Source: Sedimentisphaerales bacterium
GTDB taxonomy: Bacteria > Planctomycetota > Phycisphaerae > Sedimentisphaerales > Anaerohalosphaeraceae
Length of the DNA: 38,260 nucleotides
Assembly: GCA_016935635.1 (NCBI GenBank)
Contig: JAFGQP010000058.1
Coordinates: 1-38,260 of the forward strand
Direction: 5' to 3'
The translations under genes and the position numbers were made by a program. Below the pieces are notes generated by a model that ran no database searches, had not been told where the DNA came from, and saw only the letters and a list, made by a program, of their open reading frames with translations. Shown here in pieces: positions 1-27,849 of the stretch (the stretch's first letter is position 1; the number at the start of each line of letters is the position of its first letter).

Positions 1-16
1 CAATTTTTTGTATAGT

Positions 17-36
17 TGTTTCTATGAATAGAAACA
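17..36. repeat. Inverted repeat spanning the trpL start codon
   Basis: TGTTTCTA (17-24) and TAGAAACA (29-36) are perfect 8-base inverted arms around a TGAA centre, and the trpL ATG (24-26) lies inside. The left arm plus the next T recurs as a direct repeat TGTTTCTAT at 99-107. The dyad also lies just downstream of a TATAGT hexamer (11-16) that could be a -10 box. It could be an operator for a repressor or an RNA element; the sequence alone does not decide. Confidence 0.5.
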
Positions 37-83
37 CTTTAAATCTCACTGCACATTTTGGTTGGTGGCGCCCTGTTGGATAG
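24..83 (+). CDS. trpL: trp operon leader peptide with tandem Trp codons
   Basis: A 19-codon reading frame encodes MNRNTLNLTAHFGWWRPVG and ends at TAG 81-83. It has two adjacent tryptophan codons (TGG TGG, 63-68), and its end resembles the GWWR core of the E. coli trp leader peptide. The expected job is to sense charged tRNA-Trp: a ribosome stalled on the tandem codons changes the fold of the downstream leader RNA and lets transcription reach trpE. No Shine-Dalgarno sequence is visible before ATG 24. A TATAGT hexamer at 11-16 would place transcription initiation at or next to the ATG, so translation may be leaderless. The frame is open to the window edge, so a start further upstream is also possible. 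The call rests on the tandem Trp codons, the position before trpE and the matching hairpins. Confidence 0.82.
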   Translation: MNRNTLNLTAHFGWWRPVG

Positions 84-162
84 GCCGACAGGACCCGATG
101 TTTCTATCGTCAAAACGCGAAATAACGACCTGAAGGCTCCATAAAAGCTTTCAGGTTTTTTT
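72..162 (+). promoter_or_regulatory. trp transcription attenuator with exclusive 1:2, 2:3 and 3:4 pairings
   Basis: Four segments can be read. Segment 1 is CCTGTTGG (72-79), segment 2 GCCGACAGG (84-92), segment 3 ACCTGAAGGC (128-137) and segment 4 GCTTTCAGGT (147-156). Segments 1 and 2 (85-92) pair over 8 bp with one G-U and a 5-base loop. Segments 2 and 3 pair as GCC/GGC and CAGG/CCTG around a 2x2 purine internal loop. Segments 3 and 4 make a 10 bp terminator stem with one G-U pair, followed by a T run. Segment 1 begins three bases after the tandem Trp codons, so a ribosome stalled there would cover it, free segment 2 and favour the 2:3 antiterminator. A ribosome at the stop codon would cover segment 2 and allow termination. 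Pairings were worked out by hand; energies were not computed. Confidence 0.82.
128..162 (+). terminator. Rho-independent terminator, 3:4 hairpin of the trp attenuator
   Basis: ACCTGAAGGC (128-137) and GCTTTCAGGT (147-156) form a 10 bp stem with one G-U pair and a 9-base loop. A run of seven T follows at 156-162. It lies 38 bases before the trpE start, inside the trp leader. It could also end transcription from an unseen upstream gene, but the paired antiterminator segment argues for attenuation. Confidence 0.85.
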
Positions 163-200
163 ATTGATGCGATGTCTAAAATAATCATAAGGTACACAAA

Positions 201-1832
201 ATGAACGATTTACAAAAACGCATACAGCAGGCCCGGCCGGGACAGATTATCCCCATCGTGCGGGAAATCGACATCCGATGTCCGGTAGAGTACTTTGCCC
301 GACTGACCGATTATGGCCGGCGTAAACATAGCTGTCTCTTTGAATCAAGAGATTACTTGTCCGGAAGCGGCGCGGGCGAATTAACCTTTGCGACAGCACA
401 GCCCGCCCTTTACTTAACCGGCAAAGGCACCCATTTTCGGATCGAAGCATTAACTCCTGCAGGCAAGCGCATGCTGAGGTATCTCGCTTCAAACCCAAGA
501 CGATTTTCTTTTTGCGACCTGATTTCGTATGAACAGGATCGGATTACAGGATCATTCAGCCCATCGCAGCAAACCCTCGATGAACAGAGTCGTCTGAAAA
601 GCACCAACCAGATGGATGTCATTCGCGCCGTGGCGTTTGCCTTCGAGCTGGCCAGCAAGCCTTTCCGCATTACCTGCGGTCTTCTGGGGGCTCTGAGCTA
701 TGACTTTATCGATCAATTTGAAAAATTGCCGGCCAGCGGCAGCGATATCCTGGAAAATCCGGATTACGAGCTGTATTTTGCCGACAACATCTTTCTGATG
801 GACCATAAGAAAGGACAGGGCTTTGTTGTGGTCAACGCCGTGGTCACCAATGGCGATCGCGACCAGATTTATCAGGAAGCCATGGACACCTTTGATTTCT
901 ACACCAATAAAGTACACGAAGAAATGCCGCAGCCCAGGCCCTGTACCGCTGCCCTGCCTGCACCGGCTTGCGATACATCCCAGCTGGACTATGAAAACAA
1001 GGTACTCAAAGCCAAACAGCACATTCTTGAAGGCGACATCTTTCAGGTTGTCCTGAGCCGGACGCATATTGAACCCTGCCCTGCCGAGGCGCTGGATGTT
1101 TATCGCAAGCTGCGAAGGCTCAATCCGTCCCCCTATATGTTTTATCTGAATACTGACAATACCGTACTGATGGGAGCCAGCCCTGAATTAAATCTGCGGG
1201 TTGGTGGTTCATCGGAACGCATAGTTGAAATTCGCCCTATCGCCGGAACCAAGCCGCGCGGCCGGGTCAACAACAAAATCGATCTGGATATGGATATGCG
1301 GTATGAAGCCGAGCTCAAGCTGGATCGCAAGGAACTGGCCGAACACATGATGCTGGTTGACCTGGCTCGCAACGATATCGCGCGGGTTTCTAATCCCGGC
1401 AGCCGGGCCGTCAATGAGATGCTGACGGTCGAAAAATATGAATCCGTGATGCACCTGGTCAGCAACGTGCGAGGGATCCTCCGCAAAGACCTTGACGCTC
1501 TCAGTGCTTACCTGGCCACGATGAATATGGGAACACTGACCGGGGCACCCAAAATCGAGGCCATGAAAATCATTCGCAACCTGGAAAATACCAAGCGGGG
1601 CTACTACGGCGGCGCCGTCATGTATCTGACCGTGGATGGCCAGTTTGACAGCTGCATTACCATCCGCAGCATGCAGATACGCGACCACAAAGCCTACATC
1701 CGAGCCGGTGCGGGAATTGTTCATGACAGCGTCCCAAAAACCGAATACGAAGAAACCGTACACAAGGCTGGTTCGTGTCTGAAAGCCATTCGCAGTGCCG
1801 TCGAAGACATCGGAAAACCGCAGAGACAATAA
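201..1832 (+). CDS. trpE: Anthranilate synthase component I
   Basis: It converts chorismate to anthranilate, using ammonia supplied by TrpG, as the first committed step of tryptophan synthesis in the cytoplasm. At 543 residues it is close to family length. The N-terminal regulatory part carries an LFES motif (about 46-49) at the position of the Trp-binding LLES element, so feedback inhibition is likely. The chorismate-binding half shows GDIFQVVLS (278-286), GASPELN (325-331), IRPIAGT (344-350), EHMMLVDLARND (381-392), GTLTGAPK (444-451) and GAGIVHDSVP near 503-512. The ATG follows AAGGT by seven bases. It is the first structural gene after the attenuator and sits 10 bases before trpG. The separate TrpG and the TrpE-type N-terminus favour TrpE over PabB. 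Confidence 0.96.
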   Translation: MNDLQKRIQQARPGQIIPIVREIDIRCPVEYFARLTDYGRRKHSCLFESRDYLSGSGAGELTFATAQPALYLTGKGTHFRIEALTPAGKRMLRYLASNPRRFSFCDLISYEQDRITGSFSPSQQTLDEQSRLKSTNQMDVIRAVAFAFELASKPFRITCGLLGALSYDFIDQFEKLPASGSDILENPDYELYFADNIFLMDHKKGQGFVVVNAVVTNGDRDQIYQEAMDTFDFYTNKVHEEMPQPRPCTAALPAPACDTSQLDYENKVLKAKQHILEGDIFQVVLSRTHIEPCPAEALDVYRKLRRLNPSPYMFYLNTDNTVLMGASPELNLRVGGSSERIVEIRPIAGTKPRGRVNNKIDLDMDMRYEAELKLDRKELAEHMMLVDLARNDIARVSNPGSRAVNEMLTVEKYESVMHLVSNVRGILRKDLDALSAYLATMNMGTLTGAPKIEAMKIIRNLENTKRGYYGGAVMYLTVDGQFDSCITIRSMQIRDHKAYIRAGAGIVHDSVPKTEYEETVHKAGSCLKAIRSAVEDIGKPQRQ

Positions 1833-1842
1833 GGAAATCCCA

Positions 1843-2448
1843 ATGGAAAAACCAACTGTTCGAGTCCTGTTTATTGATAACTTTGATTCGTTTACATATA
1901 ATCTGGTGGATGAGTTCGCCAAGCGGAAGTGCCCAACCAAAGTGTATCGCGCGGATACCCCGCTGGAGGAATTAAAAAAGGCCGCGGCAGAGTTTCAGGC
2001 TCAGCTGCTGGTCTTATCGCCTGGGCCGGGCAATCCCGACACGGCCGGGGTCACTCTGGCGGCGATTGATGCATTCAAGGAAAATTTACCCATTTTGGGA
2101 GTCTGTCTGGGCCACCAGGCAATCATCCAGTATTTCGGCGGCATCATCAGTCATGCCCGTGAAGTCATGCACGGCAAACCTTCACGCATTATCCACAATG
2201 GACAAGGTCTTTTTGAAGGTCTTGAAAATCCCCTGCAGGTCGGACGCTATCACAGTCTTACCGCAGTCAAAATGCCGGACTGTATGGAAGCTACCGCGGA
2301 ATTTGAGGGGATTGTCATGGGAGCCAATCATAAAACGCTGCCGATTTATGGTGTCCAGTTTCACCCGGAAAGTATTCTGACACCAACCGGCGGACGGATT
2401 ATCGAGAATATGCTGGCAATCGCCTCGTCTTTTAAACAAGTTCAATAA
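1843..2448 (+). CDS. trpG: Anthranilate synthase component II (glutamine amidotransferase)
   Basis: This is a class I glutamine amidotransferase that releases ammonia from glutamine for TrpE. The 201-residue protein shows DNFDSFTYNL at its start, SPGPGNP (59-65), the nucleophile motif GVCLGH with Cys88, HGKPS near 110-114, and QFHPES supplying His174 and Glu176 of the triad. I chose the ATG at 1843 because AAGGA lies 7 bases upstream and the family N-terminus begins right there. An earlier in-frame ATG at 1795 would add 16 unrelated residues and overlap trpE. It could also serve para-aminobenzoate synthase, as bifunctional TrpG/PabA proteins do; that cannot be judged here. Confidence 0.94.
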   Translation: MEKPTVRVLFIDNFDSFTYNLVDEFAKRKCPTKVYRADTPLEELKKAAAEFQAQLLVLSPGPGNPDTAGVTLAAIDAFKENLPILGVCLGHQAIIQYFGGIISHAREVMHGKPSRIIHNGQGLFEGLENPLQVGRYHSLTAVKMPDCMEATAEFEGIVMGANHKTLPIYGVQFHPESILTPTGGRIIENMLAIASSFKQVQ

Positions 2449-2466
2449 CTTAATGGAACCCGAAAA

Positions 2467-3483
2467 ATGAAAAAAATTACAGAGTATCTCGAGATTATTC
2501 TGGAAGGAAAAGACCTGAGTTTTGAACAGGCCCAGGCCCTGCTGGATATCATTTTCACCGGCGAGGTGTCCCAGCTGCAGATTGCGGCGTTTCTGGCTGC
2601 CATGCGGGTTAAAAAAGCCGCTGTCAGTGAACTGGCCGGGCTGGCCTCATCCCTGCGAAATCACGCCGTCAAAGTCGAAACCGGGCTGGATAATATGGTG
2701 GATACCTGTGGTACGGGCGGTGCAGCCATGAAAACCTTCAATATTTCCACAGCAGCCGCCCTGGTGGCTGCCGGTGCCGGAGTCTATGTTGCCAAACACG
2801 GCAATCGTGCCATCACCAGTACCTGCGGTTCAGCAGACGTACTGACCGCCTTGGGCGTCAATATCGCTCCCGGCCCGGAAAAAGTGTCCCAGTGTATTCT
2901 TCAGGCCCATATTGGTTTCATGTTTGCCCCCCAGTTCCATCCGGCCATGAAACATGTCCAGCCTGTACGTCAATCCCTTGATTTCAGGACCGCATTTAAT
3001 ATCCTCGGGCCCTTGGCCAATCCGGCCAGGGCAACCGCACAGGTCATGGGTGTATCGGATGAATCCTTAATGCCCCGTATTGCGGAAGCCCTGAACGTTC
3101 TGGGCGTCAAGCGAGCTATCGTGGTCCATAGCTGCGGCCTGGACGAAATCAGCACGATGAGCCCAAGCAATATGATTCATCTGGAAGACGGACAATTCCG
3201 CAATGAACGCCTTGACCCGGTTTATCTGGGAATCCCAAGGGCAGATTATAATGATCTGATCGGTGGAGAGGCAGAAACCAATGCCCACATTGTCAAGGAC
3301 ATTATCACCGGCAGCCTGAATGGCCCCCGAAAAGATATTGTGGTATTAAATGCCGCGGCGGCTATAATGGTGGCAGGTCTGGCAAAGGATTTTGCCGAAG
3401 GCATCGAACTGGCTGACAAATCCATCCATAATGGCTCGGCAGCCAAATGCCTGGAACAGTTAATTGCTATCAGCAACAGTTGA
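2467..3483 (+). CDS. trpD: Anthranilate phosphoribosyltransferase
   Basis: It transfers the phosphoribosyl group of PRPP to anthranilate, the second step of the pathway. The 338-residue protein has an all-alpha N-terminal domain followed by the PRPP-binding DTCGTGG motif (79-85). The KHGNR motif (110-114) and GSADVLTALG (from 121) bind metal and PRPP or anthranilate in this family. It stands alone, not fused to TrpG. It begins 18 bases after trpG. The gene after it is trpF, so the usual trpC partner is missing between them. Confidence 0.95.
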   Translation: MKKITEYLEIILEGKDLSFEQAQALLDIIFTGEVSQLQIAAFLAAMRVKKAAVSELAGLASSLRNHAVKVETGLDNMVDTCGTGGAAMKTFNISTAAALVAAGAGVYVAKHGNRAITSTCGSADVLTALGVNIAPGPEKVSQCILQAHIGFMFAPQFHPAMKHVQPVRQSLDFRTAFNILGPLANPARATAQVMGVSDESLMPRIAEALNVLGVKRAIVVHSCGLDEISTMSPSNMIHLEDGQFRNERLDPVYLGIPRADYNDLIGGEAETNAHIVKDIITGSLNGPRKDIVVLNAAAAIMVAGLAKDFAEGIELADKSIHNGSAAKCLEQLIAISNS

Positions 3484-3505
3484 AAACTCAGGAGACAGCA
3501 GCACC

Positions 3506-4144
3506 ATGTTATCAATTAAAGTCAAAATTTGCGGCATCACCAACAGTGAAGACGCTCTTGCGGCAGTGGAGATGGGTGTGGATATGCTCGGCTTTAATTT
3601 CTACGAAAAAAGCCCTCGTTATGTCCCCTATGAACAGGCTTTTAATATTCTAAAAAAAATACCAACCTCCATTGACACCGTCGGGGTGTTTGTCAATCCG
3701 ACCCCGACCGAACTAAAACGAATCGTCGAAGGAGGCTTTTTAAACTGGATACAGCTTCATGGTGACGAAACCCCCGAGTTTTGCCGGTCATTGACCTGGA
3801 CCAATGCCCGCCTGATTAAGGCCATTCGGGTCAGAACCGCAGAGGATATCCAGAGAGCCTATCAGTATCCCGTCGATGCGATTATGCTGGATTCCTACGA
3901 CAAGAATCTCTATGGCGGCACAGGCAAGCCTTTTGACTGGTCGCTGATTGGAAATCTCCATCGCAGATTATTTCTGGCCGGAGGAATCAATCCCGATAAT
4001 GCCGTACAGGCCATTCAGATCGGCATTTATTGCATTGACGTATGCAGCGGCGTTGAATCGGCCCCCGGCAAAAAAGACCACACCAGAATGAAACAATTAT
4101 TCGACAACATCCATCAGGCCATAGGCTGGAAGGTACGAGCATGA
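3506..4144 (+). CDS. trpF: Phosphoribosylanthranilate isomerase
   Basis: It performs the Amadori rearrangement of phosphoribosylanthranilate to CdRP, the third step. This is a 212-residue single-domain TIM barrel. Visible marks are KICGIT with catalytic Cys9, IQLHGDE, MLDSYD with the general acid Asp129, YGGTGKPFDW, LAGGINPDN and the phosphate-binding SGVES (181-185). The ATG at 3506 is preferred because AGGAGA lies about 10 bases upstream; an earlier in-frame start at 3464 would overlap trpD and add unrelated residues. The gene ends with a 4-base ATGA overlap into trpB, which suggests translational coupling. It is not fused to TrpC as in enterobacteria. Confidence 0.94.
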   Translation: MLSIKVKICGITNSEDALAAVEMGVDMLGFNFYEKSPRYVPYEQAFNILKKIPTSIDTVGVFVNPTPTELKRIVEGGFLNWIQLHGDETPEFCRSLTWTNARLIKAIRVRTAEDIQRAYQYPVDAIMLDSYDKNLYGGTGKPFDWSLIGNLHRRLFLAGGINPDNAVQAIQIGIYCIDVCSGVESAPGKKDHTRMKQLFDNIHQAIGWKVRA

Positions 4145-5319
4145 AACACAACGGACGATTTGGCCAATTCGGAGGCTTTTATGTGCCGGAAGTTCTGATT
4201 CCAGCCCTTGAGGAAATCGAACAGGCGTTTGATCGATTTCACAACGACCCTCAATTTGTCGCCGACCTGAATAATCTGTACGCCAATTATGCCGGCAGAC
4301 CTACTCCGCTGTATTATGCCAAACGCTACAGCGAATATGTGGGCTTCCAGGTGTATATCAAACGTGAGGACCTGCTGCACGGCGGCGCACACAAGATCAA
4401 CAATACCCTCGGCCAGGGGCTTCTGGCTCAGTATATGGGCAAAAAGAAACTGATCGCCGAGACCGGTGCAGGTCAGCATGGTCTTGCGACTGCCACCGTG
4501 GGCGCATTGTTCGGCATGGAAACCAAAATCTTCATGGGCGCCATTGATGTTGAACGGCAAAACCTCAATGTCCATAAAATGAAGCTGCTTGGGGCGGAAG
4601 TCATCCCGGTTCGCGGCGGGACGTGCACTCTGAAAGATGCCATCAATGACGCCCTGCGATACTGGACTTCCCACGTCGACGATACCTTTTATCTTTTTGG
4701 TACGGCAGGCGGTCCGCATCCTTATCCAACAATTGTCAAACATTTTCAGACCCCCATCGGCATCGAAGCCCGCCAGCAATGTCTCAATCAGCTTGGGAAA
4801 TTGCCCGATGTGGTTGTTGCCTGTGTCGGCGGCGGCTCCAATGCCATCGGGATATTCAACAGCTTTATTCCTGACAACACTGTCCAGCTGATCGGTGTCG
4901 AAGGCGGCGGCAGGGGAATTTCGACCGGCCATCATTGTGCCACGCTGTGCGTTGGTACGGTCGGAGTTCTTCATGGGGCCAGAACCTATCTCCTGCAGGA
5001 CCAGAACGGCCAAATCCACGAGACTGAATGCATCTCGGCCGGTCTGGATTACCCCGGTGTCGGCCCGGAACATTCTCATCTTAAGGATATTGGCCGTGCT
5101 CGATATGTCCATGTCTCTGACGAACAGGTTCTGGATGCATTTTTTGAATTGACACGGCTGGAAGGCATTCTGCCCGCACTGGAAAGTGCTCATGCCCTGG
5201 CCTGGATCAGTGAACAAAAGGGCAAATACCCCCGCGAGACCGTGGTCGTTGTGAATTTGTCCGGCCGCGGCGACAAAGACATCGGCATTGTGGAACAACA
5301 TCGACCTTTGAATAGATAA
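4141..5319 (+). CDS. trpB: Tryptophan synthase beta chain
   Basis: This PLP enzyme condenses indole with serine to give tryptophan, working as an alpha2-beta2 complex with TrpA. The 392-residue protein belongs to the standard TrpB1 type. It carries the PLP lysine in GGAHKINNT (Lys85), the substrate loop ETGAGQHG (around 107-114), GGPHPYP (190-196) and the phosphate-binding GGGSN (230-234). The start codon overlaps the trpF stop as ATGA and no separate strong Shine-Dalgarno is needed. TrpA follows after 9 bases, matching the usual BA order of the channelling pair. Confidence 0.97.
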   Translation: MKHNGRFGQFGGFYVPEVLIPALEEIEQAFDRFHNDPQFVADLNNLYANYAGRPTPLYYAKRYSEYVGFQVYIKREDLLHGGAHKINNTLGQGLLAQYMGKKKLIAETGAGQHGLATATVGALFGMETKIFMGAIDVERQNLNVHKMKLLGAEVIPVRGGTCTLKDAINDALRYWTSHVDDTFYLFGTAGGPHPYPTIVKHFQTPIGIEARQQCLNQLGKLPDVVVACVGGGSNAIGIFNSFIPDNTVQLIGVEGGGRGISTGHHCATLCVGTVGVLHGARTYLLQDQNGQIHETECISAGLDYPGVGPEHSHLKDIGRARYVHVSDEQVLDAFFELTRLEGILPALESAHALAWISEQKGKYPRETVVVVNLSGRGDKDIGIVEQHRPLNR

Positions 5320-5328
5320 GGCAGGATT

Positions 5329-6126
5329 ATGACTTCATACAAAACCCTATTCGATCATTTAGACCGGGCAGCCCTGATTCCTTTCTTTGTACTCGGAGAC
5401 CCGGACGAAAAAACCAGTCTGGATTTGATTAAAACGGCTATTGACGCAGGGGCGGATATTCTCGAGCTGGGAATTCCCTTTTCCGACCCCATTGCCGACG
5501 GCCCAACCATCCAGAAAGCCGATATTCGCGCCCTGCAGGCTGGAATGACACCCCCAAAAGCCCTTGATTTGATTGCTCAAATCACGGCATACAAAGCCAT
5601 ACCCATAGGACTGCTGGTTTACTACAACCTGATTTACCATTATGGCGTAGAACAGTTTTTCAAAGACTTTAAAAAGGCTGGCGGAACCAGTGTCCTTGTC
5701 GCGGACATCAGCATTGATGATGCCGACGAAATCACCCCTGCCGCCCTGTCTGCAGGTCTGGAAACCGTGTTTATGGTCACTCCCAATACGCCCGACCAGC
5801 GGCTTAAGCAGATTGCAGACAAAACCACAGGATTTATCTATACGGTCTCCCTGCTGGGAACAACGGGGCAGCGAAATGAATTATCCGCAGGCGTTAAGCC
5901 TCTTATTGCCAAACTGAAGACGTTGACCAATAAGCCGGTATGCGTCGGCTTCGGTATCAGTTCCCCCGAACATGCCGCCGAGGTGGCTTCGGCCGGTGCC
6001 GACGGCGTGATTATCGGCTCCCGCGTGGTGAAAATAATCGAAGACAACCTCGGCAATCCTGAGACGATGAAGCATCAGGTTGCTGAGTTTATCGCTTCGG
6101 TTCAGGAAACACTGACAAAGGCATAG
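5329..6126 (+). CDS. trpA: Tryptophan synthase alpha chain
   Basis: It cleaves indole-3-glycerol phosphate to indole and glyceraldehyde-3-phosphate and passes indole to TrpB. The 265-residue TIM barrel shows the catalytic segment ELGIPFSDPIADG with Glu46 and Asp57. The phosphate-binding end GFGISSPEHA and the late GADGVIIGSRVV are also visible. The start reads IPFFVLGDP where many homologues have PY(I/V)xxGDP, a mild variant. It is the last gene of the operon. Its substrate is made by TrpC, which is not encoded in this window. Confidence 0.96.
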   Translation: MTSYKTLFDHLDRAALIPFFVLGDPDEKTSLDLIKTAIDAGADILELGIPFSDPIADGPTIQKADIRALQAGMTPPKALDLIAQITAYKAIPIGLLVYYNLIYHYGVEQFFKDFKKAGGTSVLVADISIDDADEITPAALSAGLETVFMVTPNTPDQRLKQIADKTTGFIYTVSLLGTTGQRNELSAGVKPLIAKLKTLTNKPVCVGFGISSPEHAAEVASAGADGVIIGSRVVKIIEDNLGNPETMKHQVAEFIASVQETLTKA

Positions 6127-14895: not shown

Positions 14896-17800
14896 TTAAA
14901 ATGCGTTAGGGTCACTCATCATCAATCTTGCTTTTTCAGCCAGTGTGTTGATAATTTGATCTCGCTGTTGAGCATGCTTCTGAATAACCTCCTTGTGGTC
15001 TGTGGCTGACGGCATTTCCCGACGCATCGCTTCATCAAACACATAAGGCGTCACAAAAACCAGCAGCTCCGTATTGGACAGATTCTGCTGTGTATGGGTA
15101 AATAACAATTCCCCAACCAGCGGAATATCGCTGAGCAATGGGACTTTATTGACCACTTTGTTGTCATTTTGTTCCAAAATACCGCCCAGCATAATCGTCT
15201 GGCCGTCGGAGACAATCAAGCGGGTTGTTGTGTCCAGATTTTTACGGGGATACTGAGTATTGATCAGCGTCAGCAATTCCATCTCGGAAATATTCAAGTT
15301 GATCGTCATATCAACCGCTTTTTCAGGAGTTATGTTGGGACGCACCCGCAGAGTAATACCAACATTCTCATAGGTATAAGTCCGGCTGGTGTTACTTAGA
15401 TTAGTACTGTCGGACTGTTCCCCTTCAATAAACGCAACTTTCTGGCCTTTGACAAAGATTGCCTCTTCATTGTCTTTGGTCCAAAGAGTCGGCTGATTTA
15501 ATATCCGACCCTTGGTTTTGGTAATCAGGAAATCCACCAGAGCATAGATGTCCAGGCTCGTATCCAGTTGAGTTCCATTTGCACCGCTGAAATCTTCAAT
15601 ATTCGACAGAGCATTCACAAACTGGGCCCCATTGATTCCAATATCACCGAAAGCCTGGGGATTGGAAGACAGCATGACACCCAGACTGCTGTTATCTTCC
15701 AGATTGATTTCCGCGATCACGACCTTGATCATGACCTGCATGCCGGGCTGATCCAGCGATTCAATCATCATGGTAATATCGTCCACATACTCCGCCGGCG
15801 CCATAACTAAGATCGCCTTGCTGCGCTGGACAGGCACAAAACGTACCTTACCAATCAGATTGCTTGGAGGCAGTTGATCGGTGGTTCGCTGCTGACGGGT
15901 CCACCACGGTGTAATCGTCGACGATGTCGATTCGGAGGCACTCACCGCCGCACCCTGATTTTCAGCATCATAACTGCTTAATCCTTTAGCGGAGCGAGGT
16001 ATAGTAGTCGGTGTACCGGCTTCATTGAAGATGGAGTTTAACTGGTCACAAAGAGATTCGCAGTCGGCATATTTGAGCACAACCACATTCGGAACCTCTC
16101 CCATTTCCTGTCCGTCGAGCTGATTGACCAGCCGCTCGATGACCTCATACGCTTCAGGAATCTTGCTGATGACAATCAGCTTCTTGGTGTCGGGCACCGG
16201 CTCAAACGTCAATAATCCATAGAGTGAACCCACAATTTTCTGTTTAGATTCGACGGAATCCCCCAGCAGCATTCGCATCAGGTTGCTGGACCCGGTGCTG
16301 CTGTCTTCTTCACTGAACAGTTTATTGAGCAGTTCAGCCATTTTTACCGGATCGGAATTCTGCAGTGTCAGAATACGGTATTGATCCTTCTGAATATCCA
16401 GCGGAACATCCCATTCCTGCTCTATCTGACGGGTAATTTTCTCCATATTGAGTTCCGACGCAATCACAGTCACCTGCTTTTGCGTGGGATACGAAATCAC
16501 CTTGACTTCATTCTTGGGATCGGTGCGGCTTCGGTTGTAGTCATAATAATTAATTCGGCCTGTTGTGGCGGTCTGGCTGTATAAACCTTCGATGTTCTGC
16601 TTGATCTGATCCGGGTCGGCGTGTTTGAGCTTGAACGTCCGCTCGACAAAATAATCGCCGCTGGGCAGGTCGATCTGAGCAATCATTTTCTCGACCATGG
16701 TGCGTCCTTCCTCATCGCCGAAAATCACTATCTGCTTGGACGCTTCAAGCCCTTCGACAACGACCGTGGACTTGCCTTTGACCGAAGGCATGTCGCGCAG
16801 TGTTCGATTGATCATTTCAACAACTTCATCAACACTGGCATACATAACAGGGACAACGGTCTGCTGGGGTGCGGCAATCTCAGCCAGGTCCAGCTTCTCA
16901 ATCCATTCCCCAATACGCTTCATATCCTCACGATTGGCCCGGGCGATAATCCATCGCTGCTTGGCCACGGGAATCAAACGAATGGGCGTCGTCGTGCCTT
17001 GTATCACAACCGATGTTAATGTTTTTGCCTGCGTCTGCGTGCGTGACGAGCTGGATCGTCCGTACTGCTGACTTTGCTGGCTTTGCTGCGGCTGGGAAGT
17101 CGTACGAGTTGCCTGGCGTGCCTGGTCGCCCAGGATCAGTTCCATCACAGAAACAATCTCTTCCGGATTGCCGTATTCCACTTCAAAAACCTGCTCAACC
17201 ATCTGCTCGGATTCGGGAATATCCAATTCCTTAATGATCTTTTCAATACGCAGCAGATTATCCACTGTGTCAATGACTGCAACCCGGCCGGTATTTTCAT
17301 CCGCCATGGCATAGCCGTGTTCACCCACCAGGGGTTTGATCATTTCGACCAGATTGCTGGGCCGATAATTAAACATCTGAAACCATTTTTCAACCATGCT
17401 GGTCTTGTCCTGAACCCGGGCCAGCGGCTCATCCACACCCAGCGTCGGTATCGCCCCCAGCTTGGCAGTCAGGATGGGACGCAGAATAATCCGCTGTTCC
17501 CCCTGGTCGGCTATCACACCGCGCGACTGCAGCGCCATAAATATCAATCCCAGCGCCTGGGCACGCGTCACACGCTGCGGCGAATACACCGTAATCCGAG
17601 TCTGCATAATCTCATCAGAAGACGGAATAATCGCCTTGCCGGTCCAGTCTCCCAGCATTTTAATGATGTTTCGCATCTCGACATTATTGAGATTCAGCGA
17701 TTCCATCGGTTCATTGGGATCCCCCGGCGCTCCCATGGGCCGAATATCAAATCCCATACCACGGGCAAACTGCTGTCCCCGTTCCATCATGCGCTGCCGT

Positions 17801-18078
17801 TCTTCCGGCGTCATGGTGGAAAAATCGAATGAAAATCCGCCCCCTGGACCGCCGCCCATCCCTCCGCGCCGACTGCTGCGCCCGAAACGTCCTTCTTCCA
17901 TGGAACGCTGATTCGGGTCCATGGGACGCGGCCGGTTTGGTTCCTGGGGACGTTCTGCTTCCGCGGAAACCGGAGGCGTATTGACGTCCCTCACCTCGGT
18001 CTGGGTTTCTGCGACGGTGATACAAATCAGAGCCGTAATGCCTGCGGCAATACCGATACATAGATTCTTCAGTTTCAA
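14896..18078 (-). CDS. gspD: Type II secretion outer-membrane secretin, oversized
   Basis: Outer-membrane channel of the secretion system, 1060 residues against about 650-750 for classical GspD. A hydrophobic signal segment (about 7-21) is followed by a Pro/Gly/Met-rich linker and an N0 domain (about 127-200). Then come roughly six N1-like alpha/beta repeats, recognisable by VFEVEYGNPEEIVSVME, VVPVMYASVDEVVEMIN, FKLKHADPDQIKQNIE, YRILTLQNSDPVKMAELL and VVVLKYADCESLCDQLN. The secretin core (about 780-1020) shows VMIKVVIAEI, ILNQPTLWT, VGITLRVRPNI, TTRLIVSDGQTIMLGGIL and VPLLSDIPLVGELLF. I use TTG 18078 because AAGGAGATAA lies just upstream and the signal sequence starts there; an ATG 69 bases earlier lacks a binding site and overlaps the preceding gene. 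It is the last gene of the operon. Confidence 0.92.
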   Translation of the reverse strand: MKLKNLCIGIAAGITALICITVAETQTEVRDVNTPPVSAEAERPQEPNRPRPMDPNQRSMEEGRFGRSSRRGGMGGGPGGGFSFDFSTMTPEERQRMMERGQQFARGMGFDIRPMGAPGDPNEPMESLNLNNVEMRNIIKMLGDWTGKAIIPSSDEIMQTRITVYSPQRVTRAQALGLIFMALQSRGVIADQGEQRIILRPILTAKLGAIPTLGVDEPLARVQDKTSMVEKWFQMFNYRPSNLVEMIKPLVGEHGYAMADENTGRVAVIDTVDNLLRIEKIIKELDIPESEQMVEQVFEVEYGNPEEIVSVMELILGDQARQATRTTSQPQQSQQSQQYGRSSSSRTQTQAKTLTSVVIQGTTTPIRLIPVAKQRWIIARANREDMKRIGEWIEKLDLAEIAAPQQTVVPVMYASVDEVVEMINRTLRDMPSVKGKSTVVVEGLEASKQIVIFGDEEGRTMVEKMIAQIDLPSGDYFVERTFKLKHADPDQIKQNIEGLYSQTATTGRINYYDYNRSRTDPKNEVKVISYPTQKQVTVIASELNMEKITRQIEQEWDVPLDIQKDQYRILTLQNSDPVKMAELLNKLFSEEDSSTGSSNLMRMLLGDSVESKQKIVGSLYGLLTFEPVPDTKKLIVISKIPEAYEVIERLVNQLDGQEMGEVPNVVVLKYADCESLCDQLNSIFNEAGTPTTIPRSAKGLSSYDAENQGAAVSASESTSSTITPWWTRQQRTTDQLPPSNLIGKVRFVPVQRSKAILVMAPAEYVDDITMMIESLDQPGMQVMIKVVIAEINLEDNSSLGVMLSSNPQAFGDIGINGAQFVNALSNIEDFSGANGTQLDTSLDIYALVDFLITKTKGRILNQPTLWTKDNEEAIFVKGQKVAFIEGEQSDSTNLSNTSRTYTYENVGITLRVRPNITPEKAVDMTINLNISEMELLTLINTQYPRKNLDTTTRLIVSDGQTIMLGGILEQNDNKVVNKVPLLSDIPLVGELLFTHTQQNLSNTELLVFVTPYVFDEAMRREMPSATDHKEVIQKHAQQRDQIINTLAEKARLMMSDPNAF

Positions 18079-18088
18079 GGTTATCTCC

Positions 18089-18814
18089 TTATTGCATGGG
18101 TTGTGTACGATTTCTTCGAAATTCTTCAAATGCCGCACGACGCTCATCCGGCGACATATTCATAAAACGATCCCGCATCTGGCCCAGTTCCTCCGGTGAC
18201 ATCCTGCGAAAATCAAATCCCCCAACGCTTCCCGGTCCACCCATCATCATGCCGGGAGGCCCCTGGCGGAACGATTCCATCGCTGCAGGAGCCGCTCCCG
18301 AAGACGGTTCAGCCCGCGAAGATTCACCGCGTCGCCCAAAAGCCTGCCTCTGATCCCGCCCGCCATACTCCACTGCCACATCAAACGGCCGCAGCACCTG
18401 CTCCTGGTTCTGCCAGGATATCTTGACCTCCGTAGGTGTTATTTCCAGAATTCTGGCCCCGTTGAATTCATCTCCGGCCTTTTTCCATTCCTCTCCGAAT
18501 AAAGCATATTCTCCGAGGATGGCCTGGCATTGCGGAAGCGGCGGTATCGCTGCCGGACCGGCAAACACACTCCTGGTTCGTATCGCTTCAAGAGCCTCAT
18601 TTTTCGAAGGCTGGGCTTCGGCAAACTGCTTTTCCAGGGACAGCTGCCTTTCAATGGCTTTTTCCACACGACCCGACAAGCCTGAGGTTGCCATGCCGTA
18701 CGACGCAATAACCCAGATCAGGCCAATCGCCGGGCACAGCCACAAATAACGGATTACCGTTTGTCCGGCACTGCCGGCCGCCCAGTGTTTGATTTTATAC
18801 ATTACTCTGGTCAT
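18089..18814 (-). CDS. GspC/PilP-like inner membrane linker protein
   Basis: A 241-residue protein with one N-terminal membrane helix (about 20-42), a periplasmic region, and a small beta-type segment GARILEITPTEVKISWQNQ resembling the GspC homology region or PilP. The C-terminal tail from about residue 160 is Gly/Met/Pro-rich (GPPGMMMGGPG) and ends with two MSP(E/D)E repeats. The position between the M-like protein and the secretin suggests it links the inner-membrane platform to GspD. It starts in an ATGA overlap with the preceding gene and ends 10 bases before the secretin TTG. The name C-like is inference from layout; overall similarity to classical GspC looks low. Confidence 0.55.
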   Translation of the reverse strand: MTRVMYKIKHWAAGSAGQTVIRYLWLCPAIGLIWVIASYGMATSGLSGRVEKAIERQLSLEKQFAEAQPSKNEALEAIRTRSVFAGPAAIPPLPQCQAILGEYALFGEEWKKAGDEFNGARILEITPTEVKISWQNQEQVLRPFDVAVEYGGRDQRQAFGRRGESSRAEPSSGAAPAAMESFRQGPPGMMMGGPGSVGGFDFRRMSPEELGQMRDRFMNMSPDERRAAFEEFRRNRTQPMQ

Positions 18815-19371
18815 AAGATTTTACTGCTCCCTCGAAAGGTGGATACCGTAAACGTGAAATCCAGTTCTTGACGATTTCTCTCGTCCACACGAAGCGTCAG
18901 TTCTTCAACCCCGACATAATAGGGATTCTTTTTCAATTCCTCCAGCAATTTGAGCATGGCCGGAAACTGACACCGGCCGCGGCATTGCAGCATAATCACA
19001 CTGGATGCATTGGGACCCGTCGCCGATCCGGTCTGAAACTGAAAATTCTTGACCTGAATGCCCGCCTGCTGAATCTGCCTGGTCAACTGGTCCCGCAGAA
19101 GCTGAACCTGCTTGTCGGGTTCCACCGGCATCTCCAGCACAGGTACCGCAGCAGTCAGGTTTTTTAATTTCATCGCTTCCACGCTGCCTTCTTCGGCCAG
19201 CAGCATGGACAGATTCTGACGCTGCTGCTGAAGACGGCTTCTGACCTGCCCGGCTTTCAGCAGTATCGGCTCGGCAATCAGAAAGTAAAAAACCATCAGC
19301 CCGCCTGTCACAGCACAAAAGACGGCTATTTTCCTTTCCCGTGGATTGAGTTTGTCAAGATATTTCATCAT
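18811..19371 (-). CDS. GspM/PilO-like assembly platform protein
   Basis: A 186-residue bitopic protein. A short cytoplasmic start (NPRERKIAVF) leads into a membrane helix (about 14-35), a coiled-coil-like segment (VRSRLQQQRQNLSML) and a ferredoxin-like periplasmic domain with MLQCRGRCQFPAMLKLLEELKKN. This is the PilO/GspM layout, in which the protein pairs with the L/N-type protein encoded just upstream. The ATG at 19371 shares one base with the preceding TAA (TAATGATG), and the end overlaps the next gene by four bases. Sequence similarity in this family is always weak, so the call depends on topology and order. Confidence 0.7.
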   Translation of the reverse strand: MMKYLDKLNPRERKIAVFCAVTGGLMVFYFLIAEPILLKAGQVRSRLQQQRQNLSMLLAEEGSVEAMKLKNLTAAVPVLEMPVEPDKQVQLLRDQLTRQIQQAGIQVKNFQFQTGSATGPNASSVIMLQCRGRCQFPAMLKLLEELKKNPYYVGVEELTLRVDERNRQELDFTFTVSTFRGSSKIL

Positions 19372-20762
19372 TAGCGGTTAAAATTCCTGTAAGCTAAGGT
19401 TATCGTAAACTGCACCCGACTTCTCCGTTCATCCAGCGTCGGAGAAATCAGCTTGACATCTTTGAAACAGGTCTGTTCCTGCAATTTCTTATGAAATGCA
19501 TTGACCTGCTCAAACGAACGGGCCTTGGCGGCAATTCGTACCGGCTGGCCTTTCTTGAAGCTGATGCTGTCCAGCAGCATATCCTTATCCATACAGCTTC
19601 CAATCGTCGACAGCATCTCCAGCATGTCCGGCCGGGCCTTGGAAATTCGATCCCGCATCTGCTGACGCGCCAGAATGGCCTGCCCGGTGGTACCGTGATA
19701 CTCCGCGGCCAGAGCCTGCTCAATGGACTCCAGCTGCCTGGCCGATGTCCAGTAAATCCCGCCCAGCAGCAAAACCACAAATACCGCTGCAACAGCCAGA
19801 CTTCGAATCAGTCCTTTTTTATCCACCACGGCATTTTCGATCTCTTCAGTCCTGGGCAGACGGATAAAATCATACGCCGGCCCCTGCTCGTCCAGAGCCG
19901 CAACGGCAAGACCAATCGTTTCCGGACGATTACGGATTTCCGTCAGTTTATCGCGAATTCCCAGCGCCGATATTTTATTATCCGACAGTTTCCATCGCTG
20001 TACGGGCCGGCCTTCCTGGGCCAGCTCCCGGCACAATCCCGCGGCGAATTCTTCTTCGCCGGTCACATAAACCGGTGTGCTTTTAGGCAGTTCCATCGTA
20101 GCCAGGACAGTGGTCAAGTCGTGGGCAACCACGGTCGTCAAAGACAGGTCCTCCACATCCACCGCCGCCGCACGTACCAGCTTTTCCGCCTCGGAAACCG
20201 CCAGAATGCAGCTGTGTTTGCGGATCTGAATCAGGGCACACTTTTCCGTTGTGCTCTCAAATACGCTCGCCCATCCTTTGACCAGACCGGCGGCATCCGG
20301 CAGAATCGATTCCACCCGCCCTGGAATCAGGTTGTACAGTTCCTGATAATAATTCTTGCGCACCACCGCCAGGCAGCCGTCCTGCGTATCACTGCCCTGT
20401 TTGACCATCCGCCAGGTAAAGGCCGCCTGAGAAAGCGCCATCGGCAGCAGAGTCTCCGCCTGAGCATGAATGATCGCAGTCAGCTTTGCCCCTTCCACCA
20501 GGGGCGCCTTGAACGCAAAAAATACGGTCTGCGTCGTGTCGGCACCGACACAAACGAGCGTCGTATCCTCGTCCGGATTGAATTTGCTGCCGGATAGTTT
20601 TTCTATCTCGGATGACAGTTTTGCTGCATCTGACACGGTGACATATCCGCCCAGCTGAAGCCCCGCCGATGTCTTTTCAATCAGGGTCAGTATCCAGCCC
20701 GCATTATCTGCGGATTTCAGGACGCTTATTGCTTTGGAATATCTTTTGGTTTCGCTATTCAA
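19371..20762 (-). CDS. GspL-like (PilM-PilN type) assembly platform protein
   Basis: A 463-residue protein with a long cytoplasmic domain, a single membrane helix (about 318-340, VAAVFVVLLLGGIYW) and a ferredoxin-like periplasmic part ending DERRSRVQFTITLAYRN. This topology matches GspL, equivalent to a fusion of PilM (actin-like) and PilN. The cytoplasmic part includes segments such as LVCVGADTTQTVFFAF and ILPDAAGLVKGW that fit an actin-like fold. The partner is the ATPase GspE. The start is TTG at 20762, overlapping the GspK stop as TTGA, so translation is probably coupled. Confidence 0.7.
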   Translation of the reverse strand: MNSETKRYSKAISVLKSADNAGWILTLIEKTSAGLQLGGYVTVSDAAKLSSEIEKLSGSKFNPDEDTTLVCVGADTTQTVFFAFKAPLVEGAKLTAIIHAQAETLLPMALSQAAFTWRMVKQGSDTQDGCLAVVRKNYYQELYNLIPGRVESILPDAAGLVKGWASVFESTTEKCALIQIRKHSCILAVSEAEKLVRAAAVDVEDLSLTTVVAHDLTTVLATMELPKSTPVYVTGEEEFAAGLCRELAQEGRPVQRWKLSDNKISALGIRDKLTEIRNRPETIGLAVAALDEQGPAYDFIRLPRTEEIENAVVDKKGLIRSLAVAAVFVVLLLGGIYWTSARQLESIEQALAAEYHGTTGQAILARQQMRDRISKARPDMLEMLSTIGSCMDKDMLLDSISFKKGQPVRIAAKARSFEQVNAFHKKLQEQTCFKDVKLISPTLDERRSRVQFTITLAYRNFNR

Positions 20763-22471
20763 ATGCCTACTCCCTCGACTTGATAAAGGATTTCCCGGCC
20801 TTCCCGGTCTCGATTGATAACCATTTCTATTGTATAACTGACTCCGCTAACCGACGAGGTCGATGTCGCGCGAATCATATAAACACTGGATCGCACACAA
20901 AACAGGTCGATATATTGCCGTAAAATGTCCTGTGTCATTCCATCCACATTAATTAAGTCGCCTACACTGGTTAGTTCTCCGCCCATGCTGTCGCGGTAAT
21001 TGATAATCTTACCCGCCAGGTCATCGTTGCCGCCCAGAAAAGCCCGCAGGACTTCAAGGCTGACTGTATTGACATTAATCTGGCCGGTAATCGTGGTATT
21101 GTTCGATATCGTAACCTGGTCCAGGATCCGGCTGAATGTTGCCCAGTCCAGCGCCTGTGCCTGAACCTCGGTTTGCCCGCCTGCAGGCGATGTGACTCCG
21201 CCGCGAGCACCGCCTTGCATACCTCCACCCTGCCCCGGACGGCCCATACCTCCGCCCTGGCCGCCGCCGGGACGTCCGCCCATACCACCTTGTCCCATAC
21301 CTCCGCCCGGGCCGCCGCCCGGACGTCCACCCATGCCGCCCTGGCCCTGTCCCCCGCCCTGACCACCGCCGGGACGTCCACCCATGCCGCCGCCTTCTCC
21401 GCCGCGACCGCCACGCCCTCCGGTCTGTCCGCCCTGCCCGCCGCGTCTACCGCCCTGCGAAGGAGCCTGCCTGCCCCCGGATGATCTGCCGCCGGAACCG
21501 GCATCCGCAACCAGCAGTGCCGGCGTAACATTCATCAAAGAATAGTCAATCATTTGCTGGTCATGCTCAGAATAAACCCCGGCCACAGGCATGAAAGGCT
21601 CAAGGGCACTGCTGGTCCGAGCGGGCGTCTGTGTACCGGATGAATTGCTTCCGCCAGTACTAGTTCCCGTTCCGCCGGGGGTGCCGGTACTGCTGCTTGA
21701 AGTGCCCATCAGATCGGCAAGCGAACGGAATCGCCGGTTTTGTGTAATCCAGCGGGCCTGTGCCTGTGTAATCGACAGCTGACTGACCATGTCGTTTTCA
21801 CTGGCAGAGTTGACATTGATTCTCTGGTTGCCGCTGGCGTCCACGTTGTTGGTTGCCGAAAAACAGGTCAAATACTGACTCCAGCCGCCTTTGCCAAGCG
21901 TGCGGTTATTCTCGCCGTAAAATAAATCTTCAGTTACGCCGCGCACGCGGAGCAGCTCTCGCGGAGTTCTGAAATTGGCATTCCGGCACTGATATCCGAT
22001 CGGCAGATTCAAATAATAACCGCTTTCAGCACCATTGGTCTCCGCTTCTTCATTTCGATCCCGCCAGTCAATAATGCTGTCGGTGATCGTCTCGTTCATC
22101 GTTTCAGTATCCAGAGCCAGAAGCTGTACCGCCGAAGCAGTGTTGATATTCAGCTTGGAACATTCGTCTGTAATTGTAACGGTGTAGGTTCCGCCGTACA
22201 ATACGACATCTTCCAATTCGGTCGTATCGAGAACCCATTCATCCAGAAGACTGTCGGTTTCTCGCAAATCCTCTTTCAGATATGCCAATGCCGTTTCCGC
22301 CCCGGCCCGCGCCATCCATCGGCATCGGATTTTTTCCACCGAGGACAAACTGATGCGGCTGTCCAGACGGCTGTTCTGGGCACCAACGGCCAGAATCGCC
22401 ATCATCACCACCAGCATCCACATCACTCCGGCCAGAACTGTGCCGGCTTGTTTGTCTCGTTTTGCAGTCAT
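20759..22471 (-). CDS. gspK: GspK-like minor pseudopilin with Gly-rich insert
   Basis: The pseudopilus tip protein of type II secretion, 570 residues against about 330 for common GspK. The N-terminus (QAGTVLAGVMWMLVVMMAILAV) is a pseudopilin-like hydrophobic helix lacking the usual Glu5, as expected for GspK. Helix-hairpin-helix-like segments follow: LNINTASAVQLLAL, INVNSASENDMVSQL and INVNTVSLEVLRAFL. Residues about 320-430 are an inserted run of Gly, Arg, Gln, Met and Pro with a 17-residue tandem repeat. The final part has TSSVSGVSYTIEMVINRD. The start ATG lies 8 bases after the GspJ stop and the end overlaps the next gene. The added mass lies entirely in low-complexity sequence. Confidence 0.85.
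   Translation of the reverse strand: MTAKRDKQAGTVLAGVMWMLVVMMAILAVGAQNSRLDSRISLSSVEKIRCRWMARAGAETALAYLKEDLRETDSLLDEWVLDTTELEDVVLYGGTYTVTITDECSKLNINTASAVQLLALDTETMNETITDSIIDWRDRNEEAETNGAESGYYLNLPIGYQCRNANFRTPRELLRVRGVTEDLFYGENNRTLGKGGWSQYLTCFSATNNVDASGNQRINVNSASENDMVSQLSITQAQARWITQNRRFRSLADLMGTSSSSTGTPGGTGTSTGGSNSSGTQTPARTSSALEPFMPVAGVYSEHDQQMIDYSLMNVTPALLVADAGSGGRSSGGRQAPSQGGRRGGQGGQTGGRGGRGGEGGGMGGRPGGGQGGGQGQGGMGGRPGGGPGGGMGQGGMGGRPGGGQGGGMGRPGQGGGMQGGARGGVTSPAGGQTEVQAQALDWATFSRILDQVTISNNTTITGQINVNTVSLEVLRAFLGGNDDLAGKIINYRDSMGGELTSVGDLINVDGMTQDILRQYIDLFCVRSSVYMIRATSTSSVSGVSYTIEMVINRDREGREILYQVEGVGI
21264..21391 (-). repeat. 51-base tandem repeat coding a Gly-rich insert in gspK
   Basis: Near-identical blocks (CCGCC-GGACGTCC-CCCAT on the plus strand) begin at 21264, 21315 and 21366, exactly 51 bases apart. 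Each codes GGMGGRPGGG followed by a variable 7-residue linker such as QGGGQGQ or PGGGMGQ, a 17-residue unit. The period is a multiple of three, so copy-number change would keep the frame. Flanking Gly-rich sequence is related but less regular. Confidence 0.85.
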
Positions 22472-22479
22472 AAATACTC

Positions 22480-23235
22480 TTATAATCCCATCGTTCCCGT
22501 TGTCCCGGTATCCATTCCCGTACCGGTGTCAAGGGTTCCGCTTTCGCTCTGTTCCCAGTCAAAATTCGCAGCATCCACTTCGTCTGTAAACTCCCCCTGT
22601 TTAAATCCCACCGCGACCTGCCGGGAATAAATCTTCTGTTTGAGGGTTCCGGCCTGACCAACGGACAGGTTAATCAAAACAAGCTGCGGCGGCCGCATAT
22701 TTTCTGACGACCACTGGTCCGTCCAGTTGCCGCTGTCAAAATACCGGACATCAAATGCCACAATCGAACCGGCAACCACTTCCAGAATGCCGCCGTCGGT
22801 GGTTTCCGTCGCCGTCTGCGAATCAAGTCCCACAATCGGGCATACCCGCCGCATCAGGGTCTGTGCCTGCTGGTCTTCCGTGATAAAATATTCAACTTCA
22901 TACAATTCTGATTCCGGCTGATCCAGACGGGCCTTGGATCGGCTGAATGTCCGGAAAATCATACGGGGTGTGGGTACGGCCCCGGTCTGGTCAATCAGCC
23001 CTTCAAAACGAATCGCGTTGCCGAAAGGCCGTATATTGCTTAAATCCGTTCGCAGCTGCTCAGCGGCAATGCGCAGTTCATCCACTGTCTCGCTGTGTTT
23101 ATCAATGGCGCTTCGCGCCGCGGTGACACTGCGAAGCCCCGATAAGGCCACCAGGGCAATAAATGCCCCCAGCGTTGCGGAAATCAGCATTTCCAGCAAC
23201 GTAAACGCCTTTCTTGAATGGCCTGTCATCTTCAT
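22480..23235 (-). CDS. gspJ: GspJ-like minor pseudopilin
   Basis: A 251-residue minor pseudopilin. The processing site reads RKA/FTLLEMLISATLGAF, with Ala instead of Gly at -1 and Glu at +5, followed by a hydrophobic helix. The body contains TAARSAIDKHSETVDELRIAAEQLRTDL and strand-rich sequence through YYF-type segments typical of GspJ/PulJ. The C-terminus ends in Thr/Gly/Met repeats (DTGTGMDTGTTGTMG). The start ATG at 23235 overlaps the gspI stop as ATGA; an ATG two codons later is equally usable. It sits between gspI and gspK, as in classical operons. Confidence 0.82.
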   Translation of the reverse strand: MKMTGHSRKAFTLLEMLISATLGAFIALVALSGLRSVTAARSAIDKHSETVDELRIAAEQLRTDLSNIRPFGNAIRFEGLIDQTGAVPTPRMIFRTFSRSKARLDQPESELYEVEYFITEDQQAQTLMRRVCPIVGLDSQTATETTDGGILEVVAGSIVAFDVRYFDSGNWTDQWSSENMRPPQLVLINLSVGQAGTLKQKIYSRQVAVGFKQGEFTDEVDAANFDWEQSESGTLDTGTGMDTGTTGTMGL

Positions 23236-23732
23236 CGTGTCATCCCTGTTCCACCGGCCGAAGTTCCGGTCGTGCCAGTTGTCCCGGTGGTGCCAGTTCC
23301 CGTCGAAGTCCCGGCTGCTGTCGAGGTTGTCGTGCTGGTTGTCTCTGCTGCGGCACGAAGCCGGGTGTCGCACTGGATCCGGCGAACTCGATTTTCCGAG
23401 ACCCACTCCACCATCATGGTCAAACTGTATAATTGTTCAATTTCCAGGGGCTCCAGCGTAGCCTGCCATCGCCATTGCATCGCACTGTGCTGGTCACTGA
23501 CAATACCGGATAAATTCGGGTTGCTGATAAGCGACTGAACGCCGATTTGGTCCAGAAGAACCATCTGGCGATCCAGCACATCCCATGCTTTCTCATATTC
23601 CTGATGAATCCGCAGCGCCGACAGGCTCTTGGCACCCAGGGCACAGATGGTCACAGTGGCCGTCGCCAGCAATCCCGCCGCGACCAGCACCTCGATCAAA
23701 CTGAATCCTTTGTTTTGCCTGCGGGTCATCAT
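23232..23732 (-). CDS. gspI: GspI-like minor pseudopilin with Thr/Gly-rich tail
   Basis: A 166-residue minor pseudopilin. The N-terminus RRQNKG/FSLIEVLVAAGLLA is a standard prepilin peptidase site with Gly at -1 and Glu at +5. The next helix contains EKAWDVLDRQMVLLD. The last 40 or so residues are almost only Thr, Ser, Gly and Ala (TSTTTSTAAGTSTGTG and similar), which is unusual for GspI and probably disordered. The underlying DNA is a degenerate GGTAC(T)-like microsatellite. The start overlaps the gspH stop as ATGA, and the end overlaps gspJ in the same way, so all three are coupled. Confidence 0.82.
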   Translation of the reverse strand: MMTRRQNKGFSLIEVLVAAGLLATATVTICALGAKSLSALRIHQEYEKAWDVLDRQMVLLDQIGVQSLISNPNLSGIVSDQHSAMQWRWQATLEPLEIEQLYSLTMMVEWVSENRVRRIQCDTRLRAAAETTSTTTSTAAGTSTGTGTTGTTGTTGTSAGGTGMTR

Positions 23733-24316
23733 TCTGTTGAATCCAAATCCACTCGCCCGGTCATAAATTGTTCGGCCGCCCCATTCTGCATCGTAACCCG
23801 CCCGGTCTGACTGATCATCACATGAGCATGGCGTACTCCATCACCAAGCTGAATCAGACAGGCCTGTGCCTTGCCGTCCGGATAAAACAGACTTTGTGTC
23901 TGAGGTCCATCCATCCCATCCACAAGAAATTGTTCCACCAGCAGTTTCTTATCCAAAGCAAGCGGCCGGGTATAGGTATTTTTCAGAATCGGGCTTTCCA
24001 TCTGCTCTGCCAGAATTTCCTGCTGAGCATTCATGGCACTGAATGTCTGATCGTCTTGATTCTGGATGGCGGCTTCCAGGTAAAGCATCTGCTGTGCCTC
24101 ATCCAGCCTCAGAGCAACGACCGTCTGCTTCTCGATTGCTGCGATTCGCGCATACTTGGCAATCAGGTAAAGCTGCCGGGCCTGGTTGGTCAGAGCCGTT
24201 TGGGAACCCATCTTCGAATAACGCAGCACGGAAATGGAGGCAAGGATACCCACCAGCGCGGCTACCGCCAGCAGCTCTATCATGGTAAAAGCCGGTTTGT
24301 TTCGATTCCTTGCCAA
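23729..24316 (-). CDS. gspH: GspH-like minor pseudopilin
   Basis: A 195-residue pseudopilin. The leader RNRNKPA/FTMIELLAVAALVGILASISVLRY has Ala at -1 and Glu at +5. The segment QARQLYLIAKYARIAAIEKQ matches the helix of GspH/FimT proteins, followed by strand-rich sequence (VVALRLDEAQQMLYLEA). The start is TTG at 24316 with GAGGGAA 6 bases upstream. It follows gspG by 41 bases and overlaps gspI. The GspH label rests on size, helix pattern and order between G and I. Confidence 0.8.
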   Translation of the reverse strand: MARNRNKPAFTMIELLAVAALVGILASISVLRYSKMGSQTALTNQARQLYLIAKYARIAAIEKQTVVALRLDEAQQMLYLEAAIQNQDDQTFSAMNAQQEILAEQMESPILKNTYTRPLALDKKLLVEQFLVDGMDGPQTQSLFYPDGKAQACLIQLGDGVRHAHVMISQTGRVTMQNGAAEQFMTGRVDLDSTE

Positions 24317-24357
24317 CGCACTTTCCCTCGTGTATCAATCCATCGCCTCAGCGGCCG

Positions 24358-24777: not shown

Positions 24778-24825
24778 TGGTTTGCCTTTCGTTTCCCTGT
24801 TCAACGTGAATAATTTCCTCATGAC

Positions 24826-26055: not shown

Positions 26056-26091
26056 TTCCCTTGTCTCCTGTCTTGATTATGCTGAGTCGGA

Positions 26092-27786: not shown

Positions 27787-27849
27787 TATAGAAATATTCC
27801 TTTTCCCCTGTGTGTCTAAGCACGTTTCCATCGCTTATTTCGCCATCTT

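Follow-up and report, generated by a model that had tools for sequence, protein, structure and literature searches.

The window analysed here, 38,260 nucleotides in length, is the entire contig C319 of a 3.8-Mb, 381-contig MAG of the order Sedimentisphaerales, and it opens with a tryptophan operon whose gene order, as assigned with Pfam, is trpEGDFBA (Table 1). The TrpE protein is 67–79% identical to TrpE of Phycisphaerae and Sedimentisphaerales MAGs, so that the first-pass annotation, which was made from the letters alone and suggested a planctomycete host, was right on this point. The trpC gene lies outside the operon: it is absent from 1795–4144 of the window and is found on contig C8 (PF00218 at C8:2427-3206). 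Far downstream, the minus strand carries a long cluster (14896–27831) that, by sequence, is type II secretion- or pseudopilus-like and includes a secretin-like ORF of 1083 aa, GspE- and GspF-like ORFs, and a Gly/Gln/Arg-repeat-rich protein.

Table 1 Features of the trp leader region and operon in the window
Feature	Position	Strand	Remarks
-10 hexamer TATAGT of trp promoter	11..16	+	7 nt to leader ATG
Palindrome GTTTCTATGAATAGAAAC, candidate TrpR operator	18..35	.	spans predicted +1 and leader codons 1-4
Leader peptide ORF, MNRNTLNLTAHFGWWRPVG and stop	24..83	+	19 codons; predicted leaderless, no Shine-Dalgarno (SD)
Tandem Trp codons TGG TGG	63..68	+	W14-W15, candidate regulatory codons
Segment 1, CCTGTTGG	72..79	+	1:2 hairpin; covariation
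Segment 2, GGCCGACAGG	83..92	+	segment 1 pairs with 85-92; segment 3 with 83-86 and 89-92
Segment 3, GACCTGAAGGCT	127..138	+	
Segment 4, AGCTTTCAGGTT, terminator 3' arm	146..157	+	12-bp hairpin, -16.2 kcal/mol
Terminator T run	156..162	+	
SD-like AAGG before trpE	189..192	+	
trpE, anthranilate synthase component I	201..1832	+	Pfam Chorismate_bind, Anth_synt_I_N
trpG	1795..2448	+	Pfam GATase; start in ORF uncertain
trpD	2467..3483	+	Pfam Glycos_transf_3
trpF	3464..4144	+	Pfam PRAI; start in ORF uncertain
trpB	4141..5319	+	Pfam PALP
trpA	5329..6126	+	Pfam Trp_syntA

The region upstream of trpE has the anatomy of a ribosome-mediated attenuator. Three nucleotides past the tandem Trp codons of a short leader ORF begins the 1:2 hairpin (CCTGTTGG/CCGACAGG, 72–79/85–92, -11.3 kcal/mol), and the TAG stop codon of the leader (81–83) sits inside its loop. 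Segment 2 can instead pair with segment 3 (83–86 with 135–138 and 89–92 with 129–132; duplex, -13.1), forming seven Watson-Crick pairs and one G-U pair with a 2-nt mismatch between, whereas segment 3 can pair with segment 4 in a terminator hairpin (127–157) that, together with the T run, spans 127–162 and ends 38 nt before the trpE ATG. The leader with its tandem Trp codons, the hairpin three bases past them, the competing 2:3 pairing and the terminator 38 bases before trpE had all been described in the first-pass annotation, and all are present.

Folding energies, which that annotation proposed to compute, are in line with this architecture: positions 24–170 fold better than every dinucleotide shuffle (n = 200; z = -3.6), and the same holds for 81–165 (z = -4.6). 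Folding 81–140 alone, which corresponds to a ribosome covering segment 1 before segment 4 has been transcribed, predicts the 2:3 form, and addition of segment 4 to the folded stretch yields the terminator form. By simple folding, the 2:3 helix of the window is weaker than the 3:4 helix, which counts against the switch. Short ORFs with adjacent Trp codons are not rare in 38 kb, there being seven other such start sites in the window, and the weight of this evidence therefore lies in the position and conservation of the leader. A separate observation concerns the 5' end of the leader, where AATAGAAACA (27–36) is complementary to TGTTTCTAT in the linker between segments 2 and 3 (98–107); the two are paired in the minimum-energy fold of 24–170, and the complementarity is a perfect 10 bp in the same-genus genome G610 (L234) and weak in G470. 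This pairing could matter when the leader is untranslated, or could represent a second half-site.

Conservation was assessed across 81 trpE loci, the window and 80 relatives, nearly all of the latter MAGs. A short ORF with two, three or four consecutive Trp codons lies upstream of trpE in 75 of the 81 loci; the frequency of such ORFs in Markov-shuffled upstream regions is 2.9%. Of the remaining loci, L013, L019 and L041 encode just one Trp in a leader of otherwise comparable make-up, L007 reads WRW in place of WW, and the upstream region of L025 is cut by the contig end; L014 is the only one of the 81 without a leader. The L014 region contains two copies of a GTCATTCCCGCGAAAGCGGGA-like repeat, perhaps an insertion that took the place of the attenuator. 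Between the Trp codons and segment 1 there are no or only a few nucleotides, and nearly all loci have a terminator before trpE.

The three helices were examined in a MAFFT alignment of 72 attenuators built from sequence only. Under the 1:2 plus 3:4 arrangement, 87.7% of positions are paired, 15 of the 17 pairs show double-sided changes, and there are 109 double-change cells vs 37.4 in shuffles (0 of 500 shuffles reach 109), and the 2:3 arrangement is 91.5% paired with 29 double-change cells vs 15.6 (again 0 of 500), all these counts being inflated by shared ancestry, which the shuffle controls leave in. For 2:3, neither the number of pairs with double changes nor the number of pair types exceeds the shuffles over the 72 sequences. 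Slid registers, the other control, are 20–49% paired, and 1:2 taken alone is only 79% paired across the order. All three helices beat both the shuffled and the slid controls, and therefore segments 2 and 3 each keep two partners; pairing and covariation thus support the 1:2, 2:3 and 3:4 helices. Conservation of the Trp-codon frame in relatives and covariation in the three stems, the comparative checks suggested at the outset, have accordingly both been found.

The promoter points to an unusual mode of leader translation. The -35 box is missing from the window because the contig starts at base 1, and a genome of the same genus (G610) reads TTGACC-N17-TATAGT-N7-ATG. A scan of the 170 nt that precede the Trp codons for the best-matching sigma70-like promoter, blind to any ATG, gave a match of at least 9 of 12 bases in all 73 testable relatives; the spacer measures 17 nt in 71 of them. 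In 69 of the 73, the next ATG in the leader frame begins 4–11 nt past the -10 box (most often 9 or 7), compared with 0 and 3 for the two remaining frames. SD-like tetramers stand before 1 of 75 leader ATGs vs 56 of 81 trpE ATGs. Together, these data strongly support a leaderless leader mRNA, in which the -10 box places +1 at the start codon and no Shine-Dalgarno is present, the exact +1 being predicted from the promoter consensus. The first-pass annotation, which noted the TATAGT at 11–16 and the absence of a Shine-Dalgarno and raised leaderless translation as a possibility, is upheld here. Planctomycetes, represented by one genome, are among the phyla whose non-SD genes tend toward leaderless or S1 signals (PMC5397173).

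A feature overlooked in the first-pass annotation is a palindrome, GTTTCTA-N4-TAGAAAC, that covers the leader start codon. Exactly two copies of GTTTCTATGAATAGAAAC exist in the genome, one at window positions 18–35 and one on contig C230, where it covers the start codon of a gene of the trpR family. The product of this gene, 99 aa in length, belongs to the Trp repressor family (PF01371, 7e-17); it scores 52.2 bits against the TIGR01321 TrpR model, below the equivalog cut-off of 67.25 and well above the 33.2 obtained with the YerC/YecD model. The QR...SLCKITRG motif is invariant in a 23-member alignment of this protein, and the family profile matches E. coli TrpR structures with QR...ITRG aligned. 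At this locus (L152, G000:C230), the trpR-family gene (1507–1803), with the palindrome over its start codon, is followed by a trpB-like (PALP) gene (1803–3017) whose start overlaps the trpR stop, an arrangement that resembles an autoregulated trpR-trpB2 unit.

Across the order, trpR is present in 29 of 161 genomes (20 in the family of the window, 5 in f3, 3 in f2 and 1 in f87). Almost all trpR genes of the window's own family, that of f87 and two of those in f2 are accompanied by a palindrome (at least 10 of 14 positions matching) that lies at the gene or a short way upstream; the f3 trpR genes lack it. Within the own family, the trp leader carries the palindrome in 15 of 15 readable trpR-positive genomes vs 2 of 8 trpR-negative ones (Fisher p = 2.8e-4, in a test that ignores phylogeny), the two exceptions being incomplete MAGs of a genus that has trpR. 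All placed exact copies in 15 genomes of this family are on trp leaders and trpR. A one-mismatch copy occurs at ~1501–1518 of L154 (G000:C63:19905-19922), with an SSS-type transporter gene ~300 bp downstream. Taken with its trpR partner, the palindrome is probably a TrpR-type operator that overlaps the start codon of the leader.

The attenuator is widespread. Of 118 genomes of the order, 85 give a hit with a covariance model of the element; weak second sites in G387, G571, G604, G509, G688 and G157 (C33) adjoin unrelated genes and look like chance terminators. Leaders were read in families f1, f3, f87, f88, f89 and f90 of the order. Outside the order, in the same class, f101 has leaders with adjacent Trp codons in six of the first eight genomes inspected and with a single Trp codon in the other two (G302 also has adjacent codons), and some f4 genomes carry them as well (G002, G034, G319 and G348), those at L276 and L275 (G002 and G034) being WWW leaders of trpE that are apparently leaderless. 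Another class of the phylum has leaders with adjacent Trp codons in G128 and G158, and WRW in G186. No such leaders were found in the inspected f5, f6, f104 and f105 genomes or near most of the distant TrpE types of the phylum. Clear terminators follow several of the leaders outside the order; none is obvious after that of G002, so that a different attenuation mode is possible there. In relatives, the regions preceding hisG (30 loci) contain no His-rich leaders, and hence there is no sign of attenuation reaching his at this gene.

Among known systems, the closest in organization is the E. coli trp operon, in which the trp repressor is paired with an attenuator, a precedent for the combination. 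Tandem Trp codons just before segment 1, a stop codon near the 1:2 loop, the mutual exclusion of 1:2/3:4 and 2:3, and a terminator before trpE are common to both, as is, with only a probable counterpart in the window, a TrpR operator at the promoter together with an autoregulated trpR. Unlike E. coli trpL, the leader of the window is predicted to be leaderless, lacks a Shine-Dalgarno and has the operator palindrome over its start codon, and the operon runs E-G-D-F-B-A with trpC elsewhere. The Sinorhizobium meliloti trpL (rnTrpL) is likewise leaderless, translated from its AUG, and attenuates upstream of trpE (PMC10117765), but the window belongs to another phylum, encodes another peptide and gives no sign of a regulatory RNA or peptide acting in trans. 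Corynebacterium and Streptomyces have classical attenuators outside Proteobacteria with two or three UGG codons (PMC1262725), a likeness of architecture to the window, in a different phylum.

A terminator and a competing helix would be present whatever the sensor, and thus the short ORF could be incidental to attenuation governed by a protein or ligand (TRAP, T-box or riboswitch). We consider this extremely improbable given that no Rfam family reaches threshold in the window and the only relevant weak match is Trp_leader itself (RF00513, 18 bits, E 0.42, under the 41-bit gathering threshold); weak matches to SNORA13 and mir-970 were dismissed as chance. Moreover, the in-frame run of Trp codons at segment 1 is conserved, which none of these sensors would need. 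The same conservation, extending to the frame and to the position of the stop codon in the loop, and the maintenance of the 2:3 alternative make it hardly credible that the terminator simply sets a constitutive, basal level of trp expression with an unimportant leader peptide.

The two upstream features invite readings of their own. Translation of the leader from an ordinary 5' UTR or from an upstream TTG or GTG is suggested by in-frame codons of this kind in some relatives and by the fact that the promoter calls are consensus matches; we regard it as quite unlikely, because these upstream frames would cross the promoter hexamers, the distance from -10 box to ATG is constrained, and SD-like motifs are nearly lacking. 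As for the palindrome, it overlaps codons 1–4, which encode an MxRN sequence conserved in the own family, and its perfect arms could pair in RNA, so that a hairpin or a coding constraint might account for it in place of an operator. This appears unlikely, considering that trpR has the palindrome too, lying in several genomes clear of the trpR coding sequence (genus g3 has it between the promoter boxes), that hardly any copies occur away from the trp leader and trpR among the genomes searched, and that it is missing from families without trpR.

TrpR repression combined with leaderless, ribosome-mediated attenuation of the trp operon is therefore the best model, to which we assign a probability of roughly 0.9; it builds on the anatomy, conservation, covariation, promoter-to-ATG spacing, operator sharing and trpR co-occurrence seen in the sequences. 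RNA polymerase would start at the leader AUG or within ~2 nt of it, so that the leader peptide would be translated from an mRNA that has no Shine-Dalgarno and no, or almost no, 5' UTR. Termination, we infer, depends on coupling and responds to tryptophan: with plentiful charged tRNA-Trp, the ribosome would clear both UGG codons and run on to the stop codon within the 1:2 loop; segment 2 would then be unavailable, 3:4 would form and transcription would end at T156–162. With tRNA-Trp in short supply, the ribosome would stall at UGG 14/15 and mask segment 1, segment 2 would pair with segment 3, and trpEGDFBA would be transcribed. In the own family, a TrpR-type repressor is probably a second layer, which would bind the palindrome over the transcription start and repress the trp operon as well as trpR itself; the sister families would have kept attenuation alone.

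The mechanism is of a known kind, and every component has a precedent; its phylum, breadth and combination appear undescribed in the literature searched. Most described cases of leader-peptide control of amino-acid operons come from Proteobacteria and Actinobacteria. A 2010 survey reported, outside Proteobacteria and Actinobacteria, only its own Firmicutes hisS case of leader-peptide attenuation (PMC2965389). The first-pass annotation was aware of no case in Planctomycetota, and we likewise found none in the full-text papers searched, a collection that covers few subscription journals.

The attenuator is order-wide, in an order of bacteria that are for the most part uncultured, and occurs in at least one other class of Planctomycetota. 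It is likely that, in one family, a single ~160-bp element joins a TrpR operator that overlaps the start of a leaderless leader ORF with ribosome-counted Trp codons and an intrinsic terminator, that sister families without trpR and operator keep the attenuator, and that transcription and translation are closely coupled in this phylum. Attenuation works only if the ribosome closely trails RNA polymerase, and it has been suggested that some Planctomycetota keep transcription and translation apart. The element would offer a direct genetic test of coupling in these bacteria, supply many natural, putatively leaderless leader peptides, and allow repressor and attenuator to be compared between lineages that have trpR and lineages that lack it.
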